Assembly: GCF_900119385.1 (NCBI RefSeq) | Contig: NZ_FPKO01000009.1 | Location: forward strand, 1,077,405 to 1,141,404 | Length of the DNA stretch: 64,000 bases | Source: Thermophilibacter mediterraneus | Lineage (GTDB): Bacteria > Actinomycetota > Coriobacteriia > Coriobacteriales > Atopobiaceae | Reading direction: 5' to 3' | In this document: positions 18,774 to 59,691 of the stretch, piece by piece | How positions within the stretch are numbered: the stretch's first letter is position 1 | Layout of the letters: each line of letters starts with the position of its first letter | Position numbers and translations under genes: made by a program | The notes under the pieces: generated by a model | What the model was told of the DNA's origin: nothing | What the model saw: the letters and a program-made list of their open reading frames with translations, nothing else | The model's database searches: none

Positions 18774-18884
18774 CTACTCCCCGCGCGTCAGCTCCTCCTC
18801 GAGGACCGGCCAGAGCGCGATGGGGGCCAGGAGGAGCAGGGTTCCCAGGGCGGCGAGAAGCACGTAGAGCTGCTGGATCATCAT
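18774..18884 (-). CDS. 36-residue single-span membrane protein at the end of the ATPase operon
   Basis: A short ORF beginning ATG-ATG at 18884 with GGGAGA 4-9 bases upstream. The product starts MMIQQLYVLLAALG, has one hydrophobic helix of about 23 residues (LYVLLAALG to about WPVL) and an acidic tail EEELTRGE. Thirty-four of 36 codons end in G or C, matching real genes here. It is 129 bases downstream of the second TrkA gene on the same strand, so it probably belongs to the pump operon. Size and topology recall KdpF or FXYD-type small pump subunits, but the sequence does not match KdpF. Function is inferred from position only. Confidence 0.6.
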   Translation of the reverse strand: MMIQQLYVLLAALGTLLLLAPIALWPVLEEELTRGE

Positions 18885-19013
18885 GGTCTCCCTTCGCGGC
18901 GGCGTGCGTGACGGGACCATTGTCCCGCCGGCGCCCCCGGGGAGCCATCGCACAAGGTTGCGCCCACCTTACGGTTTCGCAAGGCATGCCCGCGCTTCGC
19001 CCCGCGACGCACC

Positions 19014-19673
19014 TCACGCGAACGCGCGGTGAAGCCGGGTGCGTCCCTGCTCGTCCGTGAACGCGATGATTTTGTCCCCCGCCTCGAAGCGCGTGTCCCC
19101 CTTGGGGACCACGATGCCGTCCTGGCGCTCTATGGCCACGAGAATCGTGGTGCCCGGGAGCTCCACGTTGCGCAGGGCCTCGCCGATGACGCGCGAGCCG
19201 GGGCGCACCTCCACGCGCACGACGGCGTGGCCGTCCTTGCCCAGGCGCAAGATCGTGAACACGTCGCGCAGGTCGAGCCCTTCCTGCACGGAGCGGGCGA
19301 GAAGCTCGGCCTGGTTGATGCTCACGTCCACGCCCATGCCCTCGTTGAACATCCAGGCGTTTGCCGGGTTGTTCACGCGTGCCACCACGCGGCCCACGCT
19401 GTACTCCATCTTGGCGAGGGTGGAGACCACGAGATTGACCTCGTCGGAGCCCGTGGCGGCCACCACCACGTCCGCGTGGAGGATGCCCGCGCGCTCCAGG
19501 GCGAGCGGGTCGGCGCCGTTCCCGAGGATGACGTCCTTCTCGCCGAACTGCTCGCGCAGGCGCGCGACGTGGTCCTTGCGGGACTCGATGATGCGGATGC
19601 GGTAGCCGTCCTCGGTGAGGAGCGTGGCGAGGTAGGTCCCGGTCTTGCCGCCGCCCACGATAATGATGTCCAT
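19014..19673 (-). CDS. trkA: TrkA-family RCK protein, second copy
   Basis: A 219-residue cytosolic K+-transport regulator. The N-terminal Rossmann (TrkA-N/RCK) domain has VGGGKTG (about 6-12) for NAD(H) or ATP and an acidic residue in IIESRKD at the end of beta-2. NGADPLALERAGI is a conserved RCK turn. Residues from about 140 form a TrkA-C domain with PGSRVIGEALRNVELP. Such proteins normally gate TrkH/KtrB channels, but none is encoded here; instead the gene follows a second RCK gene and a P-type ATPase. ATG 19673 lies 10 bases from the upstream stop. Confidence 0.85.
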   Translation of the reverse strand: MDIIIVGGGKTGTYLATLLTEDGYRIRIIESRKDHVARLREQFGEKDVILGNGADPLALERAGILHADVVVAATGSDEVNLVVSTLAKMEYSVGRVVARVNNPANAWMFNEGMGVDVSINQAELLARSVQEGLDLRDVFTILRLGKDGHAVVRVEVRPGSRVIGEALRNVELPGTTILVAIERQDGIVVPKGDTRFEAGDKIIAFTDEQGRTRLHRAFA

Positions 19674-19682
19674 GGTGCCCTC

Positions 19683-20336
19683 CTACGCGCTCGTGCCGAT
19701 CATGTAGCGGAACTTCGCCGAGGCGCTCGACGCCACGGCGGCATAGATGACGTCCCCGTGCTCGAGGACGGTCCCGAGCGTGGGGATGAAGGTCTCGTTG
19801 TTGCGCGAGACCGCCACGACCTCCACCTCGCCCAGGGCCGTGAGCTCGCGCACGGGGCGCCCCTCCAGAAGGGCCGGGACGTCGCTGCGCACGAGCTGCA
19901 CGTCGCCCGAGCCGATCTCCAGCACCGTGTCCATCTCCTGGTAGGTGAGCAGCTCGCAGGCATGGCGGATGCCCCAGTCCGTGGTGGAGATGGTCTGTAT
20001 GCCCAGGCGCCGGTACGCCTCCGCCTTGCTTATGTCATAGAGCCGCGCGATGACGCGGGGCACGCGATAGGTTCCGCGGGCCACGCGGGCGATGACGATG
20101 TTCGCCTCGTCCGAGGACGTGCAGGCAACGACGGCGCTCGCTCGCTCAACGCCCGCGGCGGAGAGGACCTCGCGGTCAAACCCCACGCCCACGACGTGCC
20201 TGCCGGCGAAGTCCTCCCCCAGCTCCTCGAGCTCCTCGGCGTCGCGGTCTATGACGGTGACGTCGTGCCCCTGACGGCTCAGCCTCCTGGCGAGCCCGCG
20301 GCCCATGTGGCCCGCGCCCACGATGATGACGTTCAT
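19683..20336 (-). CDS. trkA: TrkA-family RCK protein, first copy
   Basis: A 217-residue RCK protein with VGAGHMGRGLA (about 6-16) as the nucleotide loop, VIDRDAEELEE after beta-2, and a TrkA-C-like second half from about 135. It differs clearly from the following copy, so the pair is old; two unlike RCK proteins could form a hetero-oligomeric ring as CglK or KtrA/C pairs may. It starts 6 bases after the ATPase stop and is followed by the next RCK gene after 9 bases, which makes a tight operon. Partner channel or pump not proven. Confidence 0.85.
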   Translation of the reverse strand: MNVIIVGAGHMGRGLARRLSRQGHDVTVIDRDAEELEELGEDFAGRHVVGVGFDREVLSAAGVERASAVVACTSSDEANIVIARVARGTYRVPRVIARLYDISKAEAYRRLGIQTISTTDWGIRHACELLTYQEMDTVLEIGSGDVQLVRSDVPALLEGRPVRELTALGEVEVVAVSRNNETFIPTLGTVLEHGDVIYAAVASSASAKFRYMIGTSA

Positions 20337-20342
20337 GGCAAC

Positions 20343-23183
20343 CTACCTCTCCTCGGCGCCCGCACGATTGGCGCGGCGCCTCCTGACAAGACGGAACACG
20401 GCCTTGCGACCCTCCTCCACCGCAAGCACGAGCGGCGGCAGGCAGCAGAGGAAGACGTAGTCAAAGAGCCCGAGCGGGCTGGTGTGGAAGACCTGCTGGA
20501 ACGGCGGGAAGAGCGTTATGAACACGATAAGGCAGACCTCGAAGACGATGCCCACGTTGATGTGGCGGTTGGAGAGGAGCCCTCGAGAGAAGACCGAGGC
20601 GGTCTCGGTGCGGCAGTTGAGGACCTGGCCGATCTGGGCAAACACGATCGCCGCGAGGCACATCGTGGTGGCGCGCACGTAGACCGGGTCGGCGTCCGTG
20701 CCCACGCCGAACATCGGCAGGCCCGGCAGCCACCCGGCCTCGACCTGAGCGAAGACGTAGGCGGCCATGGAGACGACGGCGCCCATGAGCCCGTAGCCGA
20801 GAAACGCCTTGCGCATGAGCTTTGCCGTGAGCAGGGGCTCCTTCGGGTCGCGCGGCGGGCGGTCCATGACGTCGGCCTCCGGGGCCTCGCAGCCCAGGCC
20901 GAGCGCCGGCAGCATGTCCGTGCCGAGGTCGATGGTGAGGATCTGCATCGTGGTGAGCGGCAGCGGCACGGCGCCGCCCGAGAGCAGGTAGACGGCCGAG
21001 GGCACCGCCTCGGGCATGTTGGAGTTCAAGATGTAGAGCATGAACTTGCGAATGTTGGCGTAGACGGCACGCCCCTCCTCGATGGCGTGGACGATGGAGG
21101 CGAAGTTGTCGTCCGTGAGCACCATGTCGGCGGCCTCCTTGGCCACGTCCGTGCCCGTGACGCCCATGGCCACGCCTATGTCGGCCTTCTTGAGCGCGGG
21201 GGAGTCGTTTACGCCGTCGCCCGTGACTGCAACGATCTCTCCCATCTGCTGGAGGTTCTCCACCACGCGCAGCTTCTGCTCGGGAGCCATGCGCGAGAAG
21301 ACCACCTCGCCTCCGAGAATCTCGCGGAGCTCTGCGTCGCTCATGCGCTCCAGCTCTACTCCCGACACCACCCGCGGGTGCTCTCCGCGCACGATGCCGA
21401 TCCTGCGCGCAATGGAGACGGCGGTGAGGCCGTAGTCCCCGGTGATCATGATGACGCGGATGCCCGCCCGCCGGCACTGCTCGACGGCTGCCGCCACCTC
21501 AGGACGCGGCGGGTCCTGCATGACCTCGAGACCAACGAAGACGAGGTCGCGCTCTATGTTCTCGGGCGTGTAGGCGCTCATGGCGCGCGGCACGCTCTCG
21601 TCGTCGGTGCGGAGCGGCCGGTAGGCCACGGCAAGGACGCGCAGGCCGTCGGCGGCGTAGGCGTCGTTTGCCGCGCGAATCCTCTCGTGCAGCTCGTCTG
21701 TCATCTCCACGGTCTTCTCGTAGGCGCGGCAGCGGGTGGAGAGGCGCACGATCTCACTGGGCGCTCCCTTCACGAAGGCCACGCGGCGTGCGCCCTCGAG
21801 AGGCTCGGAGAGCTGGTGGATCGTCGTCATGCGCTTGCGGCGGCTCTCGAAGGGCAGCTCGCGCACGCGGGGGCAGGACGCCTCCAGCTCCGCGGGGTCG
21901 AGCCCGGCCTTCTGGGCGGAGACGAGCAGGCACGCCTCGGTGGGGTCGCCCAGCACCGTGTAGCGCCCTCCCTCCTCCTCGGGCGCGATGAGGCGGGCGT
22001 TGGAGCACAGCGCCCCGCCGGAGACGAGCAGGCGCAGGTCGTCGTCATAGATGGCCTGGATGCGATGACCTGCCGCGCGCACCTCGCCCTCGGGGGCGTA
22101 GCCCACGCCCGTGACCTCGTACTCCGAGCCCACCGTCCAGAGGTGGTTCACCGTCATCTCGTTCTGGGTGAGGGTGCCTGTCTTGTCCGTGCAGATGACC
22201 GAGGTGGACCCCAGTGTCTCCACCGAGTTGAGCTTCTTCACGAGGGCGTTTCTCTTGCTCATGCGCTGCACGGCCATGGCAAGCGAGAGCGTCACCGTGG
22301 GCAGGAGCCCCTCGGGGATGAACGCGACCACCATGCCCAGGGAGAAGATGAAGGCGGCCGCGAACTCGCTCCCCACGAAGAGCTGGTCCAGGAGGAAGAA
22401 GCCCACGCCCATGCAGGCGGCAAAGACCGTGATCTGCCTGGTGGTGCGGTTGAGCTGCTGCTGGAGCGGGCTCTCGGCCTCCTCCATGTTCTGCGTGAGG
22501 TGCGCGATCTTGCCAAACTCCGTGTCCATGCCTATGCGCGTGACCACCGCGCGGCCGGTTCCCTCCGAGACCGAGGTCCCGGCAAAGAGGAGGTTGGGCG
22601 TCTCGGCCTGCGTGAGGTCCTCCTCCAGCACCGCGTCGGCCGTCTTGCGCACGGGGTTGGACTCCCCGGTGAGCGTGGACTGGTTGACCTGGAGGTCGTT
22701 GGCGCGCACCACGCGCGCGTCCGCGGAGATCTTGTCCCCCTCGGCGAGCAGCATGACGTCCCCGGGCACGAGGTCCTCGGCCAGGATCTTCTGCTCCTGG
22801 CCGTCGCGGATGACGCTTGCGTAGGAGGGGAGCATCTTCTTGAGCGCGTCCGTGGCCTTGCCCGCGCGGTACTCCTGCCAGAAGCTGAAGCAGCCGTTGA
22901 TGACGTTCACGAGCCAGACCGCCACGCCCAGCTCAGGCAGCCCCGCCACAAAGGCAATGGCGCCGGCGGCCCACAGGAGGCATGCCATGAGGTGGGTGAA
23001 GTTGGAGAGAAACGCCAGAACCGGCGACCTCCTCTTCTCCGTTTGGATGAGGTTCTTGCCCTGCCGGGCCTGACGGGCCTCCGCCTCCGACTGCGTGAGT
23101 CCGGCCGGCGAGGTCTCGAGTGCCGAGAAGACCCTGTCCGCCGTGAGCCTCTGCACGGCCACGGAGGCTGTCGCTTCGCTCAT
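20343..23183 (-). CDS. Na+/K+-ATPase-like P2-type cation pump
   Basis: A 946-residue P-type ATPase. LTGES at 171-175 is the actuator loop, D333 in CTDKTGTLTQ is phosphorylated, KGAP at 472-475 binds ATP and TGDGVND at 654-660 binds Mg2+. M4 reads IPEGLLPTVT (289-298) and the M5-M6 region reads NSNMPEAVPS ... ILTIDLGTDMLPALG (720-763). By eye this is closer to the Na,K-ATPase alpha chain (VPEGLLATVT, SNIPEITPF, CIDLGTDMVPA) than to Ca2+ pumps. Counterparts of the alpha residues E327, N776, E779, D804 and D808 are E291, N722, E725, D752 and D756. The D926 counterpart is Q853. No beta subunit is seen. KdpDE-like genes lie upstream and two RCK genes downstream. Confidence 0.85.
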   Translation of the reverse strand: MSEATASVAVQRLTADRVFSALETSPAGLTQSEAEARQARQGKNLIQTEKRRSPVLAFLSNFTHLMACLLWAAGAIAFVAGLPELGVAVWLVNVINGCFSFWQEYRAGKATDALKKMLPSYASVIRDGQEQKILAEDLVPGDVMLLAEGDKISADARVVRANDLQVNQSTLTGESNPVRKTADAVLEEDLTQAETPNLLFAGTSVSEGTGRAVVTRIGMDTEFGKIAHLTQNMEEAESPLQQQLNRTTRQITVFAACMGVGFFLLDQLFVGSEFAAAFIFSLGMVVAFIPEGLLPTVTLSLAMAVQRMSKRNALVKKLNSVETLGSTSVICTDKTGTLTQNEMTVNHLWTVGSEYEVTGVGYAPEGEVRAAGHRIQAIYDDDLRLLVSGGALCSNARLIAPEEEGGRYTVLGDPTEACLLVSAQKAGLDPAELEASCPRVRELPFESRRKRMTTIHQLSEPLEGARRVAFVKGAPSEIVRLSTRCRAYEKTVEMTDELHERIRAANDAYAADGLRVLAVAYRPLRTDDESVPRAMSAYTPENIERDLVFVGLEVMQDPPRPEVAAAVEQCRRAGIRVIMITGDYGLTAVSIARRIGIVRGEHPRVVSGVELERMSDAELREILGGEVVFSRMAPEQKLRVVENLQQMGEIVAVTGDGVNDSPALKKADIGVAMGVTGTDVAKEAADMVLTDDNFASIVHAIEEGRAVYANIRKFMLYILNSNMPEAVPSAVYLLSGGAVPLPLTTMQILTIDLGTDMLPALGLGCEAPEADVMDRPPRDPKEPLLTAKLMRKAFLGYGLMGAVVSMAAYVFAQVEAGWLPGLPMFGVGTDADPVYVRATTMCLAAIVFAQIGQVLNCRTETASVFSRGLLSNRHINVGIVFEVCLIVFITLFPPFQQVFHTSPLGLFDYVFLCCLPPLVLAVEEGRKAVFRLVRRRRANRAGAEER

Positions 23184-23289
23184 CTCGGCCCTCCCTTCTC
23201 GTGTGGCTGTGCGTACGCGGCAAAGGGTAGGCCAGGGAGGGGCGTGTGGGCGCGGGGTGCCAGCGGGTGGTCAAAACGCCACGTGCCGA

Positions 23290-23339
23290 GCATAAAGACC
23301 CTGTTAAGAGGGGGCGTCTCGGCATAAAGGCGGCATTAA
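23290..23339 (-). promoter_or_regulatory. two operator-like direct repeats upstream of the pump gene
   Basis: GCATAAAGACCCTGTTAA (23290-23307) and GCATAAAGGCGGCATTAA (23322-23339), 32 bases apart. On the coding strand each reads as TTAAYR-N5-TTTATG, two half-sites 11 bases apart, the pattern bound by OmpR/PhoB/KdpE-type regulators. They lie between the regulator gene and the pump, about 107-156 bases before its start. KdpE binding is an inference. Confidence 0.55.
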
Positions 23340-23377
23340 CGCCGCAGGTCGGCAGCTTGCGAAGCGGGACCCGGCAG

Positions 23378-24076
23378 CTACTCCACCCGAACCATGCGAT
23401 AGCCCACGCCCACGTGGGTCTGGACGAGCTCGGGGCCGATCTTCTTGCGCAGGGAGGCCATGATGACGCGCAGCGACGCGAGGTCCCCCACCTGGCCCTC
23501 GCCCCACGCGTGCTCGAGGAGGTACTGGTGGGTGAGGACCTTGTCAGTGTTTCTGGAGAGAAGGACGAGCAGCCGGTACTCCATGGGGGTGAGGTGGAGC
23601 TCCTCCCCGCGCACGCGCGCGATCCCGGCCGCGTAGTCGATCGTGAGCCCGCCGTTCGCGAAGGTGGGCGACTCGGGGCGGGCGGGCTCGCGGCTCGCGC
23701 GCCGCAGCGCCACCCGCACGCGCGCGAGGAGCTCGCCCACCGAGAAGGGCTTCACGAGGTAGTCGTCGGCGCCGGCGTCGAGCGCGTCGATCTTGTCGGC
23801 GTCGTCGGAGCGGGCGGAGACCACGATGATGGACAGGTCGCTCGACCAGGTGCGCACGCGGCGGACGACCTCGATGCCGTCCATGTCGGGCAGCCCCAGG
23901 TCGAGCAGGATGACGCGCGGCGCGAGCTCCGCGGCGTCGGCAATGGCCCGACGGGCGGTCCCGGCGAGCGCGTGCCGCAGGCCGCGCGACTCGAGCGCGG
24001 TGCCGACGAGGTTCGCGATGGCAGGGTCGTCCTCGACGACGAGGACGAGCGGGGCGTCGGCGGCTGGCTCAGACAT
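23378..24076 (-). CDS. kdpE: KdpE-like OmpR-family response regulator
   Basis: A 232-residue two-component regulator. The receiver domain (about 10-122) has VVEDD with the acidic pocket, the phosphoacceptor Asp in VILLDLGLPD, and the Lys in VKPFSVGEL. The winged-helix output domain (about 135-232) ends with LRKKIGPELVQTHVGVGYRM, typical of OmpR/KdpE. Its start overlaps the kinase gene by 8 bases. The likely target is the pump operon immediately downstream, whose leader carries two matching direct-repeat sites. The Kdp assignment rests on the kinase's DUF4118 domain and overall similarity; kdpFABC itself is absent from the window. Confidence 0.85.
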   Translation of the reverse strand: MSEPAADAPLVLVVEDDPAIANLVGTALESRGLRHALAGTARRAIADAAELAPRVILLDLGLPDMDGIEVVRRVRTWSSDLSIIVVSARSDDADKIDALDAGADDYLVKPFSVGELLARVRVALRRASREPARPESPTFANGGLTIDYAAGIARVRGEELHLTPMEYRLLVLLSRNTDKVLTHQYLLEHAWGEGQVGDLASLRVIMASLRKKIGPELVQTHVGVGYRMVRVE

Positions 24077-25589
24077 TGGGTACCTCCTCGGCGGGAAGGG
24101 TGAGGGAGAAGACGGAGCCGTGCGGGGCGCGGTCGCGCACGGAGATGGTGCCGCCGTGGGCCCGCGCGACCGCCCGGCAGACGGTGAGCCCCAGCCCGAC
24201 GCTGCGCGTCCCGTCGGGCAGGGTGGCGCCCGCGGTGCGGAAGGGGTCGAAGACGAGGTCCTTCTCGGCGTCCGGAATCCCAGGGCCGTCGTCCGCCACG
24301 CGCAGCTCCACGACCTCGCCCGCGCGCTCCGCCGAGACCGTGACGCGGCAGCCCGCGGGCGTGTGCGAGACGGCGTTGTTGACGAGGTTCACGAGCGCCT
24401 GGACGACGAGCGCGGGGTCCGCGCGCACGAGCAGCGGTTCGTCCGGAGCCTCGAAGCGCACCTCGTGGGCGTCGTCGCGCGCGGCGTGTCGCAGGGCCTC
24501 CTCCACGAGGTCGTCCACGAGCTCCGCGTCCGCCTGCGGCCGGACGCCGCCCTCCTCGAGGCGCGTGACCGTGAGGAGGTTCTCCACCGTGGCGCGGAGC
24601 CACGACGCGTCGTCGCGGACCGACTCGAGCAGGGCGCGCCGGCGCGCCCCGTCGAGGGCGTCGGAGGCCTCGAGCAGGACGTCGGCGTTGCCGATGATGG
24701 AGGTGAGCGGCGTGCGGAGGTCGTGGGAGATCGAGCGGAGGAGGTCAGCGCGGGTGCGCTCGTCGCGCGCGCGGACGGCGGCGCGCTCGCGCTCCTCGAG
24801 GGCGAGCAGGCGCTCGGCGGCGAGGGCCGAGACGCCGCAGGCGGATCGCCACAGGTCGACGTCCTCGGGAGCGAGGTCGGACGCGGGGGCGAGCGCAATC
24901 ACGCCGAGCGGACGTCGATCGCTGCCGAAGGGGAGGTAGAGGCCCGATGCCGCCCCGAGGGAGGCGGTCGTCGCGCCCGCCGGGGCGCGGTTCGCGAGGG
25001 CGAGCAGGGCGACCTGTCGCTCGTCGACGACGGTCCCGCCCGGCTCGAGGGGGTAGGCGCGCTGCGGCCCGAGGGCCGCGGCGCCGTCGGCGACGGGGTA
25101 CCACGCCATCGAGCGCCGCAGCGTGCGCGCGGTGCATCGTGCCATGACGCCGATCACGGCGTCGACGTCGGCGCAGTCCTGGAGCTCGCCCCTGAGGGCG
25201 AGCAGCGCCTGCGAGCGGGCGCGGGCGTCCTGCGCCTCGCGGGCCTCGGCGCGCAGGCGCGCGGCGAGGCGGCCCGCGACGAGCGCGACGACGAACATCA
25301 CGGCAAACGTTCCCGGCATGGCGGGGTCGAGCGCCTCGAGCGAGAGCGTGGGCGCCGCGAAGAAGAAGTTGAACGCGAGGACCGACAGCGCCGCCGCCGC
25401 GATGCACCACGATCCGCCCGGGGTCAGGAGCGCGACGCCGATGACGGAGAGCACGTAGGTCACGACGACGGTCGCCTGCTGCAGCCCCGCGGCGCTCAGG
25501 CACGCACCCGCCGCCGTGGCGGCAGCGATGAGCCCGACCGTCACGAGAAGCGATGAAAAGGGGGTCCCCCTTCCCATCGGGCGCGTCAT
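24069..25589 (-). CDS. kdpD: KdpD-like sensor histidine kinase lacking the N-terminal KdpD domain
   Basis: A 506-residue membrane kinase. Four membrane helices in residues 10-110 match the KdpD DUF4118 segment (LAFNFFFAAPTLSLE is characteristic). A GAF-like domain covers about 130-240. The H-box SISHDLRTPLTSIIGN follows near 270, then LVNLVNNAVSHTP (N box), DDGPGIPDAEKDLVFDPF (G1/F box) and GLGLTVCRAVARAHGG (G2). The large N-terminal KdpD sensor and Usp domains of canonical KdpD are missing, so ligand sensing must differ. Its ATG overlaps the TGA of the M16C gene (ATGA), implying coupled translation. Confidence 0.85.
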   Translation of the reverse strand: MTRPMGRGTPFSSLLVTVGLIAAATAAGACLSAAGLQQATVVVTYVLSVIGVALLTPGGSWCIAAAALSVLAFNFFFAAPTLSLEALDPAMPGTFAVMFVVALVAGRLAARLRAEAREAQDARARSQALLALRGELQDCADVDAVIGVMARCTARTLRRSMAWYPVADGAAALGPQRAYPLEPGGTVVDERQVALLALANRAPAGATTASLGAASGLYLPFGSDRRPLGVIALAPASDLAPEDVDLWRSACGVSALAAERLLALEERERAAVRARDERTRADLLRSISHDLRTPLTSIIGNADVLLEASDALDGARRRALLESVRDDASWLRATVENLLTVTRLEEGGVRPQADAELVDDLVEEALRHAARDDAHEVRFEAPDEPLLVRADPALVVQALVNLVNNAVSHTPAGCRVTVSAERAGEVVELRVADDGPGIPDAEKDLVFDPFRTAGATLPDGTRSVGLGLTVCRAVARAHGGTISVRDRAPHGSVFSLTLPAEEVPNV

Positions 25590-59572: not shown

Positions 59573-59583
59573 ACCAATCGAAA

Positions 59584-59671
59584 GCGGGGGGCTGGCGCAC
59601 GCCGGCTGAGATTGGGCCCAGGATCGCGGCCCTGACCCATAACCTGATCCGGGTAATGCCGGCGTAGGGAC
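59584..59671 (+). ncRNA. TPP riboswitch (THI box)
   Basis: Contains the two diagnostic conserved strings: GGCTGAGA (59604-59611) and CCTGATCCGGGTAATGCCGG followed by CGTAGGGA (59643-59671). Flanking GCTGGCG and GCCGGC segments form P2/P3-type helices. It binds thiamine pyrophosphate and, with the terminator at 59692, should switch off the downstream importer when TPP is plentiful. Confidence 0.96.
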
Positions 59672-59691
59672 CTTAGGCAGTGCGCTCGCGA

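Follow-up and report, generated by a model that had tools for sequence, protein, structure and literature searches.

K+ channels and K+/H+ exchangers are known to be switched by RCK domains, and the known regulators of P-type pumps are small membrane peptides, terminal domains and kinases. We describe here a genetic module of Thermophilibacter mediterraneus (Coriobacteriia, Atopobiaceae) in which both kinds of protein are encoded side by side: a P2-type ATPase resembling the alpha chain of the Na,K-ATPase, followed directly by genes for two single-RCK proteins, RCK1 and RCK2. The module lies in a window of 64,000 nucleotides, meaning the whole stretch of DNA analyzed (NCBI RefSeq assembly GCF_900119385.1, contig NZ_FPKO01000009.1, positions 1,077,405 to 1,141,404), in whose numbering coordinates are given.

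Described systems resemble one or another part of this module. In Thermotoga maritima, according to the available text of PMC4380455, TM1088A (16 kDa, with PF02254 as its only domain) assembles with TM1088B into an octameric ring that serves the TrkH protein TM1089. The two TrkA proteins CeoB and CeoC of Mycobacterium tuberculosis are described as a K+ uptake system in a report whose main text names no TrkH (PMC13163235). Prokaryotic members of the Na,K-type alpha family have been reported, all of them lacking the beta-binding motif according to excerpts of PMC9609216, and the subunits named in the available part of a review of P-type ATPases are beta, FXYD, phospholamban-type and Kdp subunits (PMC10654040).

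Here we define the core of the module as ATPase-RCK1-RCK2, a unit that is smaller and more widespread than a preliminary description of the window had supposed, and we report its distribution, the predicted properties of its products, and the restriction of RCK genes, within the window's family, to genomes that carry either this pump or TrkH. We assign a probability of about 0.58 to the reading that the trio encodes an inducible K+-importing, Na+-exporting P2 pump controlled by a ring of split-TrkA type, a coupling that we infer from predicted protein properties and genomic context.

Results

The pump-RCK-RCK core in Actinomycetota and Bacillota

The three core genes occupy the minus strand. 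The ATPase gene (20343..23183; 946 aa) encodes the Pfam domains Cation_ATPase_N, E1-E2_ATPase, Cation_ATPase, HAD hydrolase and Cation_ATPase_C, together with the P-type motifs DKTGTLT, TGES and TGDGVND. RCK1 (19683..20336; 217 aa) starts 6 nt past the ATPase and RCK2 (19014..19673; 219 aa) starts 9 nt past RCK1, each consisting of TrkA_N and TrkA_C. In surveying relatives we termed a locus linked when an RCK ORF lies at most 2.5 kb downstream of its best-matching pump, which gives 105 fetched loci, or 106 with L138, left out because its best-matching pump sits behind the RCK pair. Linked sequences are often close kin, and the counts given throughout are of sequences, not events.

ATPase-RCK1-RCK2 was found on one strand and in one order in 88 of the 89 Actinomycetota loci for which the arrangement can be told and the ATPase is at least 47% identical to that of the window. 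At this identity the pump is present in 60 of 296 genomes of the class, the window's own included (the match in G105 being partial). Fifty-nine Coriobacteriia loci were fetched besides the window's own, and in all 58 that can be told (L081 ends at a contig edge) RCK1 and then RCK2 follow the pump on the same strand, the order remaining unchanged as RCK identity ranges from 93% down to about 33%; a pump of 41% identity fetched alongside them (L090) has no RCK behind it. Outside the class, 396 genomes of the phylum yielded 55 full-length matches of at least 47% identity, 33 of them covered, in 31 fetched loci. RCK genes lie behind the pump in 30 of these loci, with L107 as the exception; the contig of L140 stops inside the RCK pair. 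Among loci of less similar P2 pumps of the phylum, 28 of the 29 fetched have no RCK, and only L112 has the pair.

The same arrangement recurs in Bacillota. In the order of a linked Erysipelotrichaceae metagenome-assembled genome (MAG), 14 of 148 genomes, that MAG included, carry a pump of 55-65% identity, and in all 13 further loci two RCK genes stand straight behind it. Among the 80 matches listed from a scan of GTDB genomes across prokaryotes, three were linked (Collinsella tanakaei, the Erysipelotrichaceae MAG and a Clostridia MAG), three had a non-adjacent RCK and 74 had none, nine of the 77 unlinked loci having less than 600 nt downstream and hence not being tellable. Related pumps also occur in 202 plasmid records; of the three neighborhoods read, one was linked, plasmid p1 of Streptomyces fungicidicus (L260), in which the trio is present as annotated genes. 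Since the order recurs in both Actinomycetota and Bacillota, the grouping of these genes is not fortuitous, and the conservation of gene order among relatives, on which the preliminary description had made its proposal depend, is borne out by the Actinomycetota and Bacillota-order loci counted above.

Some individual loci depart from, or add to, this pattern. The L260 trio is surrounded by universal stress, BON, Hsp20 and nitroreductase genes, a neighborhood that may correspond to a cluster for hypoxia or dormancy. L138 and L144 each combine a single RCK pair with two tandem pumps of the clade, in L138 as pump-RCK-RCK-pump and in L144 as pump-pump-RCK-RCK, possibly providing two ion specificities under one ring. 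The pumps of L258, on Lactiplantibacillus plantarum plasmid pEM1, and of L164 share about 52-53% identity with the window pump and have no RCK nearby; pEM1 is typed as mobilizable.

Ion site and phylogenetic position of the pump

Residues of the Na,K-ATPase ion site are largely retained in the linked pumps. The equivalents of E327, Y771, D804 and Q923 are kept in all 95 sequences compared, and those of S775 in 87, N776 in 89, E779 in 94, T807 in 92, D808 in 89 (Glu in six) and E954 in 93; the window pump itself is identical to the Na,K-ATPase at E327, S775, N776, E779, D804 and D808. When rows are divided by the halves of the FastTree tree, the D804 position holds Asp in each of the 27 unlinked sequences on the Na,K-type side, against Asn in 36 of the 37 on the Ca-type side, so that Asp marks the whole of the Na,K-type half and not the RCK-linked clade alone. 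In SERCA numbering this M6 position is N796, and the window pump and all 95 linked pumps have Asp there, not Asn. Of the beta-binding motif SYG(Q/E), SYG is missing from the window pump.

Matches of the window pump to sequences in the PDB were highest for the Na,K-ATPase (527 bits), followed by SPCA (493), LMCA1 (482) and SERCA (468), and Foldseek ranked the Na,K-ATPase first for the predicted pump structure. The resemblance to the Na,K-ATPase alpha chain at M4-M6 claimed in the preliminary description is therefore upheld by both the PDB match and the ion-site residues. The second P2 ATPase of the same genome (L133; G000 C1:333969-336380) matches LMCA1 at 561 bits versus 391 for the Na,K-ATPase, and has Asn at the D804 position, which makes it a helpful contrast from within one genome.

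Phylogenies gave a concordant division into two halves. A quick IQ-TREE analysis placed 42 of 44 RCK-linked rows in one group (SH-aLRT 96), the two unlinked rows inside it being tandem partners of linked pumps, and split off the Ca-type half with a support of 100, leaving the shark Na,K-ATPase in the half of the window pump. A FastTree analysis with GTDB relatives recovered the same halves (support 99), the Na,K-ATPase adjoining proteobacterial pumps; in these midpoint-rooted trees the shark sequence is a long branch and the sole eukaryotic reference. The trees thus put the ATPase in the Na,K-ATPase half, apart from the Ca-type half; a firm placement with Ca2+ pumps is what the preliminary description had named as damaging to its proposal. 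Columns specific to the RCK clade were also considered as a docking site, and were set aside because the four that passed the filter (E342, E477, N506 and Y584) are too few.

The RCK pair and the restriction of RCK genes

By its sequence matches RCK1 is akin to the N-terminal half of TrkA and to TM1088A, and RCK2 to the C-terminal half and to TM1088B. Because the two products match the two halves of TrkA, the pair looks like a split TrkA ring that adjoins a pump and not TrkH. Among 102 pairs, the nucleotide-binding motif GxGxxG is present in 101 RCK1 and in all 102 RCK2 sequences. RCK1 measures at least 210 aa in every pair, and RCK2 less than 170 aa in 14; two of the short RCK2 (L097 and L104) are cut by contig ends. 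RCK2 is pared to about the Rossmann domain, like TM1088A, in L074, L075, L078, L079, L082, L083, L084, L086, L100, L155, L246 and L247. The RCK2 of some relatives lacks TrkA_C, an asymmetry like that of TM1088A and TM1088B as given in the available text of PMC4380455. A comparison by eye of the window RCKs with the c-di-AMP signature of RCK_C, as presented in accessible passages of PMC10117811, did not reveal that signature. Nine phage records contain relatives of RCK1, with identities of at most 32%.

The usual partners of RCK proteins are TrkH/KtrB channels. In the window's own assembly (2.37 Mb, 99.6% complete) the TrkH/KtrB family had no match and KdpA had none, and the only two TrkA_N proteins are those of the block. 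The statement in the preliminary description that neither TrkH/KtrB nor KdpFABC is present can therefore be extended, for TrkH/KtrB and KdpA, to the genome, and the idea of an RCK pair awaiting a distant TrkH in this genome was discarded. The association was then examined across the family of the window's genome, using the 58 genomes for which pump, TrkH and RCK searches were all available (23 of 81 were left out, their pump and TrkH state not being known). An RCK protein scoring at least 39 bits occurs in all 18 genomes with pump or TrkH and in none of the 40 with neither; we did not score as RCK the weak TrkA_N matches of 20-33 bits, among them ORFs of about 340 aa in G168, G202 and G180. 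The 18 RCK-bearing genomes comprise 12 with the pump only, five with TrkH only and one with both, and their RCK genes adjoin the pump or TrkH by coordinates. No other observation speaks as strongly for assigning the pair to the pump as this restriction within the family. Across the class, TrkH is found in eight of 60 genomes with the pump versus 137 of 236 without it, a difference confounded by descent.

Alternative readings of the core

A number of observations weigh against a K+-importing, Na+-exporting pump under RCK control, some concerning the ion transported and others the partner of the ring. As to the ion, D926, which in the Na,K-ATPase is part of the third Na+ site, has given way to Gln in the window pump and is mostly replaced in the linked pumps (Asn in 39, Gln in 31, Glu in 14 and Thr in six of 95), which makes a 3Na/2K stoichiometry doubtful. 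The window pump scores 624.0 bits with the Na,K-type NCBIfam model TIGR01106, below its cut-off of 946.1, and also falls short of the Ca-type models TIGR01522 (650.5 of 798.3 bits) and TIGR01116 (570.5 of 703.4 bits). With all of these cut-offs missed and the PMR1-type Ca model on top, at 650.5 bits against 624.0, the pump is not filed as a member of P2C. Comparison of its predicted structure (pLDDT 82.7) ends in a tie of LMCA1, SPCA and the Na,K-ATPase at Z 38-39, P2 pumps scoring about equally (Z 34-39) among the 50 matches listed. Abstracts describe another bacterial P2 pump, CtpF of M. tuberculosis, as a Ca2+ pump, and the available text of PMC4119724 calls it a possible alkali/alkaline earth transporter; CtpF is the chief reason for caution in deducing the transported ion from sequence.

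Such features would suit a pump that is under RCK control but exports a different ion, either Ca2+ or Na+ alone, acting in stress or detoxification and not in K+ uptake. The model scores, the loss of D926, the report on CtpF and the universal stress, Hsp20 and nitroreductase genes around the Streptomyces plasmid copy all speak for this possibility. We nevertheless judge it improbable, given that Asp at D804 is invariant both in the linked pumps and in the remainder of the Na,K-type half, versus Asn in nearly all of the Ca-type half, the retention of S775, N776, E779, D808, Q923 and E954 in most linked pumps, and the KdpDE-like two-component system in the window's own operon. RCK proteins, moreover, act on K+ systems in the accessible portions of PMC10117811 and PMC4380455.

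As to the linkage, no pump-RCK fusion was found among the loci examined, and two pumps that fall inside the RCK clade in the FastTree analysis have no adjacent RCK (L164, Limosilactobacillus gastricus, and L162, a Brocadiaceae MAG). Conversely, two RCK-linked pumps, those of L108 and L112, fall outside the main clade as a deep pair of their own, and that of L105 lies outside it in FastTree only, one of the two trees.

Other K+ transporters are also at hand. The window's genome encodes one KUP, as do 76 of the 81 genomes of its family (its own included), and the pump is consequently not the sole K+ route. TrkH accompanies the pump in the eight Coriobacteriia genomes noted above. In the five named genomes tested, TrkH is present in both linked Bacillota MAGs (L161 and L165) and in the unlinked L164, and absent from L160 (C. 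tanakaei) and L162. Its occurrence in some linked genomes means that mutual exclusion of pump and TrkH is not general, and the RCK pair of the two linked Bacillota MAGs may serve TrkH. A TrkH-like ORF was detected near two of the 105 linked loci (L098 and L147), using a model built from very few sequences. In these loci the TrkH-like gene (L098 2219-3835; L147 12296-14005) and extra double-RCK TrkA genes lie near the pump-RCK-RCK module. The preliminary description had recognized that a TrkH partner encoded elsewhere would undermine its proposal: none is found in the window's own genome, and the coexistence does arise in the Coriobacteriia genomes and Bacillota MAGs just named.

These transporters raise the alternative that the RCK proteins make no contact with the pump: co-transcription would reflect a shared role in K+ balance, and the ring would control KUP, an unlinked channel or, in genomes that have it, TrkH. 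The near-universal KUP and the cases of TrkH fit this proposal. So do two loci, L261 (Streptomyces sp. BHT-5-2) and L262 (Nonomuraea), in which an RCK pair has no such ATPase within the 12.6 kb fetched; the long same-strand ORFs just upstream of these two pairs matched no Pfam family. The CeoB/CeoC pair, a K+ uptake system with no TrkH mentioned in the main text of PMC13163235, is in keeping with it as well. We regard this alternative as rather unlikely, because RCK genes at the threshold used are absent from all family genomes lacking both pump and TrkH, although KUP is nearly universal there and hence does not explain where RCK genes occur. Also opposed to it are the gene order kept while RCK identity declines to about 33%, the presence of RCKs beside this clade of pumps when 28 of 29 less similar ones lack them, and the lack of a TrkH match in the window's own genome.

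A regional two-component system and a small ORF

Around the core, the window contains three further frames on the minus strand, giving the transcription order kinase, regulator, ATPase, RCK1, RCK2 and mini ORF. All six genes had been listed in the preliminary description, every item correctly. The first frame encodes a KdpD-like histidine kinase of 506 aa (24069..25589) with DUF4118, HisKA and HATPase_c. The second, overlapping the kinase gene by 8 nt, encodes a KdpE-like response regulator of the OmpR family (23378..24076; 232 aa). A gap of 194 nt (23184..23377) separates regulator and ATPase and contains no sigma-70-like consensus in the scan made; the consensus scan of the locus found no promoter, and terminators only at chance level. 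A plus-strand ORF of 1432 aa opposite the ATPase (19029-23327) was put down to base composition. The sole Rfam match at gathering threshold within the window is a TPP riboswitch at 59575-59687 on the plus strand (56.2 bits).

The best NCBIfam models of kinase and regulator are KdpD (229.6 bits, cut-off 1123) and KdpE (204.3 bits, cut-off 325). The KdpD sensor PF02702 is not among the Pfam matches of the kinase, in agreement with its earlier characterization as KdpD-like without the usual N-terminal sensor, and GAF_3 falls below its cut-off. Of the 105 linked loci, 25 have a kinase/regulator pair immediately before the pump; 23 of these belong to the window's family and two to f3, a family of the same order whose L057 neighbors the C. 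tanakaei record L160 in the FastTree tree. We accordingly rejected the two-component system as a core part and consider the pair a regional addition; its inclusion with pump and RCKs in one module, as first proposed, describes the window and does not carry over to most linked loci.

The mini ORF, of 36 codons (18774..18884), begins 129 nt past RCK2 and would encode a peptide with a single hydrophobic stretch. It matched no Pfam or NCBIfam family, is preceded by GGGAG, a plausible ribosome site, and is peripheral, being found in close congeners only: at E<1e-9 it occurs in six of 31 genomes of the genus, its own included, a seventh (G830) having a weak 42% match that contains a stop. In four aligned sequences 22 of 36 columns are invariant, as is the hydrophobic core, and the ORF is probably a real small gene. 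That the peptide is a pump subunit analogous to FXYD or KdpF, as the preliminary description had suggested, draws on the hydrophobic stretch, the ribosome site and the conservation of the sequence in five other genomes of the genus. Its scarcity in the genus, its presence near the pump in only four of 59 fetched Coriobacteriia clade loci, and its distance of about 840 nt from RCK2 in one of these (L031, genome G122) render this proposal highly improbable, and as a conserved general subunit the peptide was rejected.

Discussion

We propose that the ATPase, a single-chain P2 pump with most of the K+/Na+ site of the Na,K-ATPase, would most likely bring K+ in and move Na+ out at the expense of ATP, and that a cytosolic ring composed of RCK1 and RCK2, as split halves of TrkA, would set its activity. 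By analogy with TrkA acting on TrkH, the ring may read the nucleotide state of the cell (ATP/ADP or NAD(H)) and accordingly let the pump run or hold it back. Within the window's family, the operon would be turned on by a KdpDE-like two-component system, in the place held elsewhere by KdpFABC. Sequence and genome content establish the gene order and its distribution, the ion-site residues, the position in the trees, the lack of TrkH and KdpA in the window's genome, the family-wide restriction of RCK genes and the nucleotide-binding motifs. We infer in this scheme the contact between ring and pump, the identity of the ions and their direction, the ligand of the ring and the target of the two-component system.

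Comparison with described systems places the module between several of them. The pump shares with the Na,K-/H,K-ATPase alpha chains (P2C) most ion-site residues of M4, M5, M6, M8 and M9, its best PDB match and its position in the trees; it differs in lacking the beta motif, in the replacement of D926, in scoring below the family cut-off and in having an RCK pair attached. A parallel with KdpFABC/KdpDE lies in the proposed ATP-driven uptake of K+ under a two-component system of the KdpD/KdpE type in the window's family, whereas the window's genome has no KdpA, its ATPase is of P2 type and not KdpB, and its kinase has no match to PF02702. The genes for CeoB and CeoC are presumably adjoined by one for an APC-type permease. 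Like RCK1 and RCK2 they encode a pair of TrkA proteins, for which the available text of PMC13163235 mentions no linked P2 ATPase. The likeness to TM1088A and TM1088B, judged here on sequence, consists in two adjacent single-RCK genes, one resembling the N-terminal and the other the C-terminal half of TrkA; unlike the Thermotoga maritima system, the neighbor is a P-type ATPase, and TrkH is absent from the genome.

Prokaryotic Na,K-type alpha chains, as sequences, and split TrkA rings are thus known separately, and what appears to be new is their standing combination. The view that this combination had not been characterized agrees with the literature searched on P-type ATPases with RCK/TrkA proteins or K+ uptake, prokaryotic Na,K-type pumps and CtpF, in which, mostly at the level of abstracts, no description of a pump with an RCK pair was found. 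We lean slightly toward regarding the module as a new class of P-type complex, in which a Na,K-type pump is gated by a hetero-oligomeric RCK ring, TrkH having been exchanged for a primary pump.

The linkage suggests a way of controlling a Na,K-type pump through proteins known for opening and closing K+ channels. If the RCK pair does control the pump, two regulatory traditions of ion transport would be joined, and one nucleotide-sensing module would govern passive K+ channels as well as an active K+/Na+ pump in Actinomycetota and Bacillota. The module would then also offer a bacterial system for testing pumping of the Na,K-ATPase type and the way in which the cell's energy state controls it, and it may explain K+/Na+ handling in TrkH-less Coriobacteriia where the constitutive KUP falls short.

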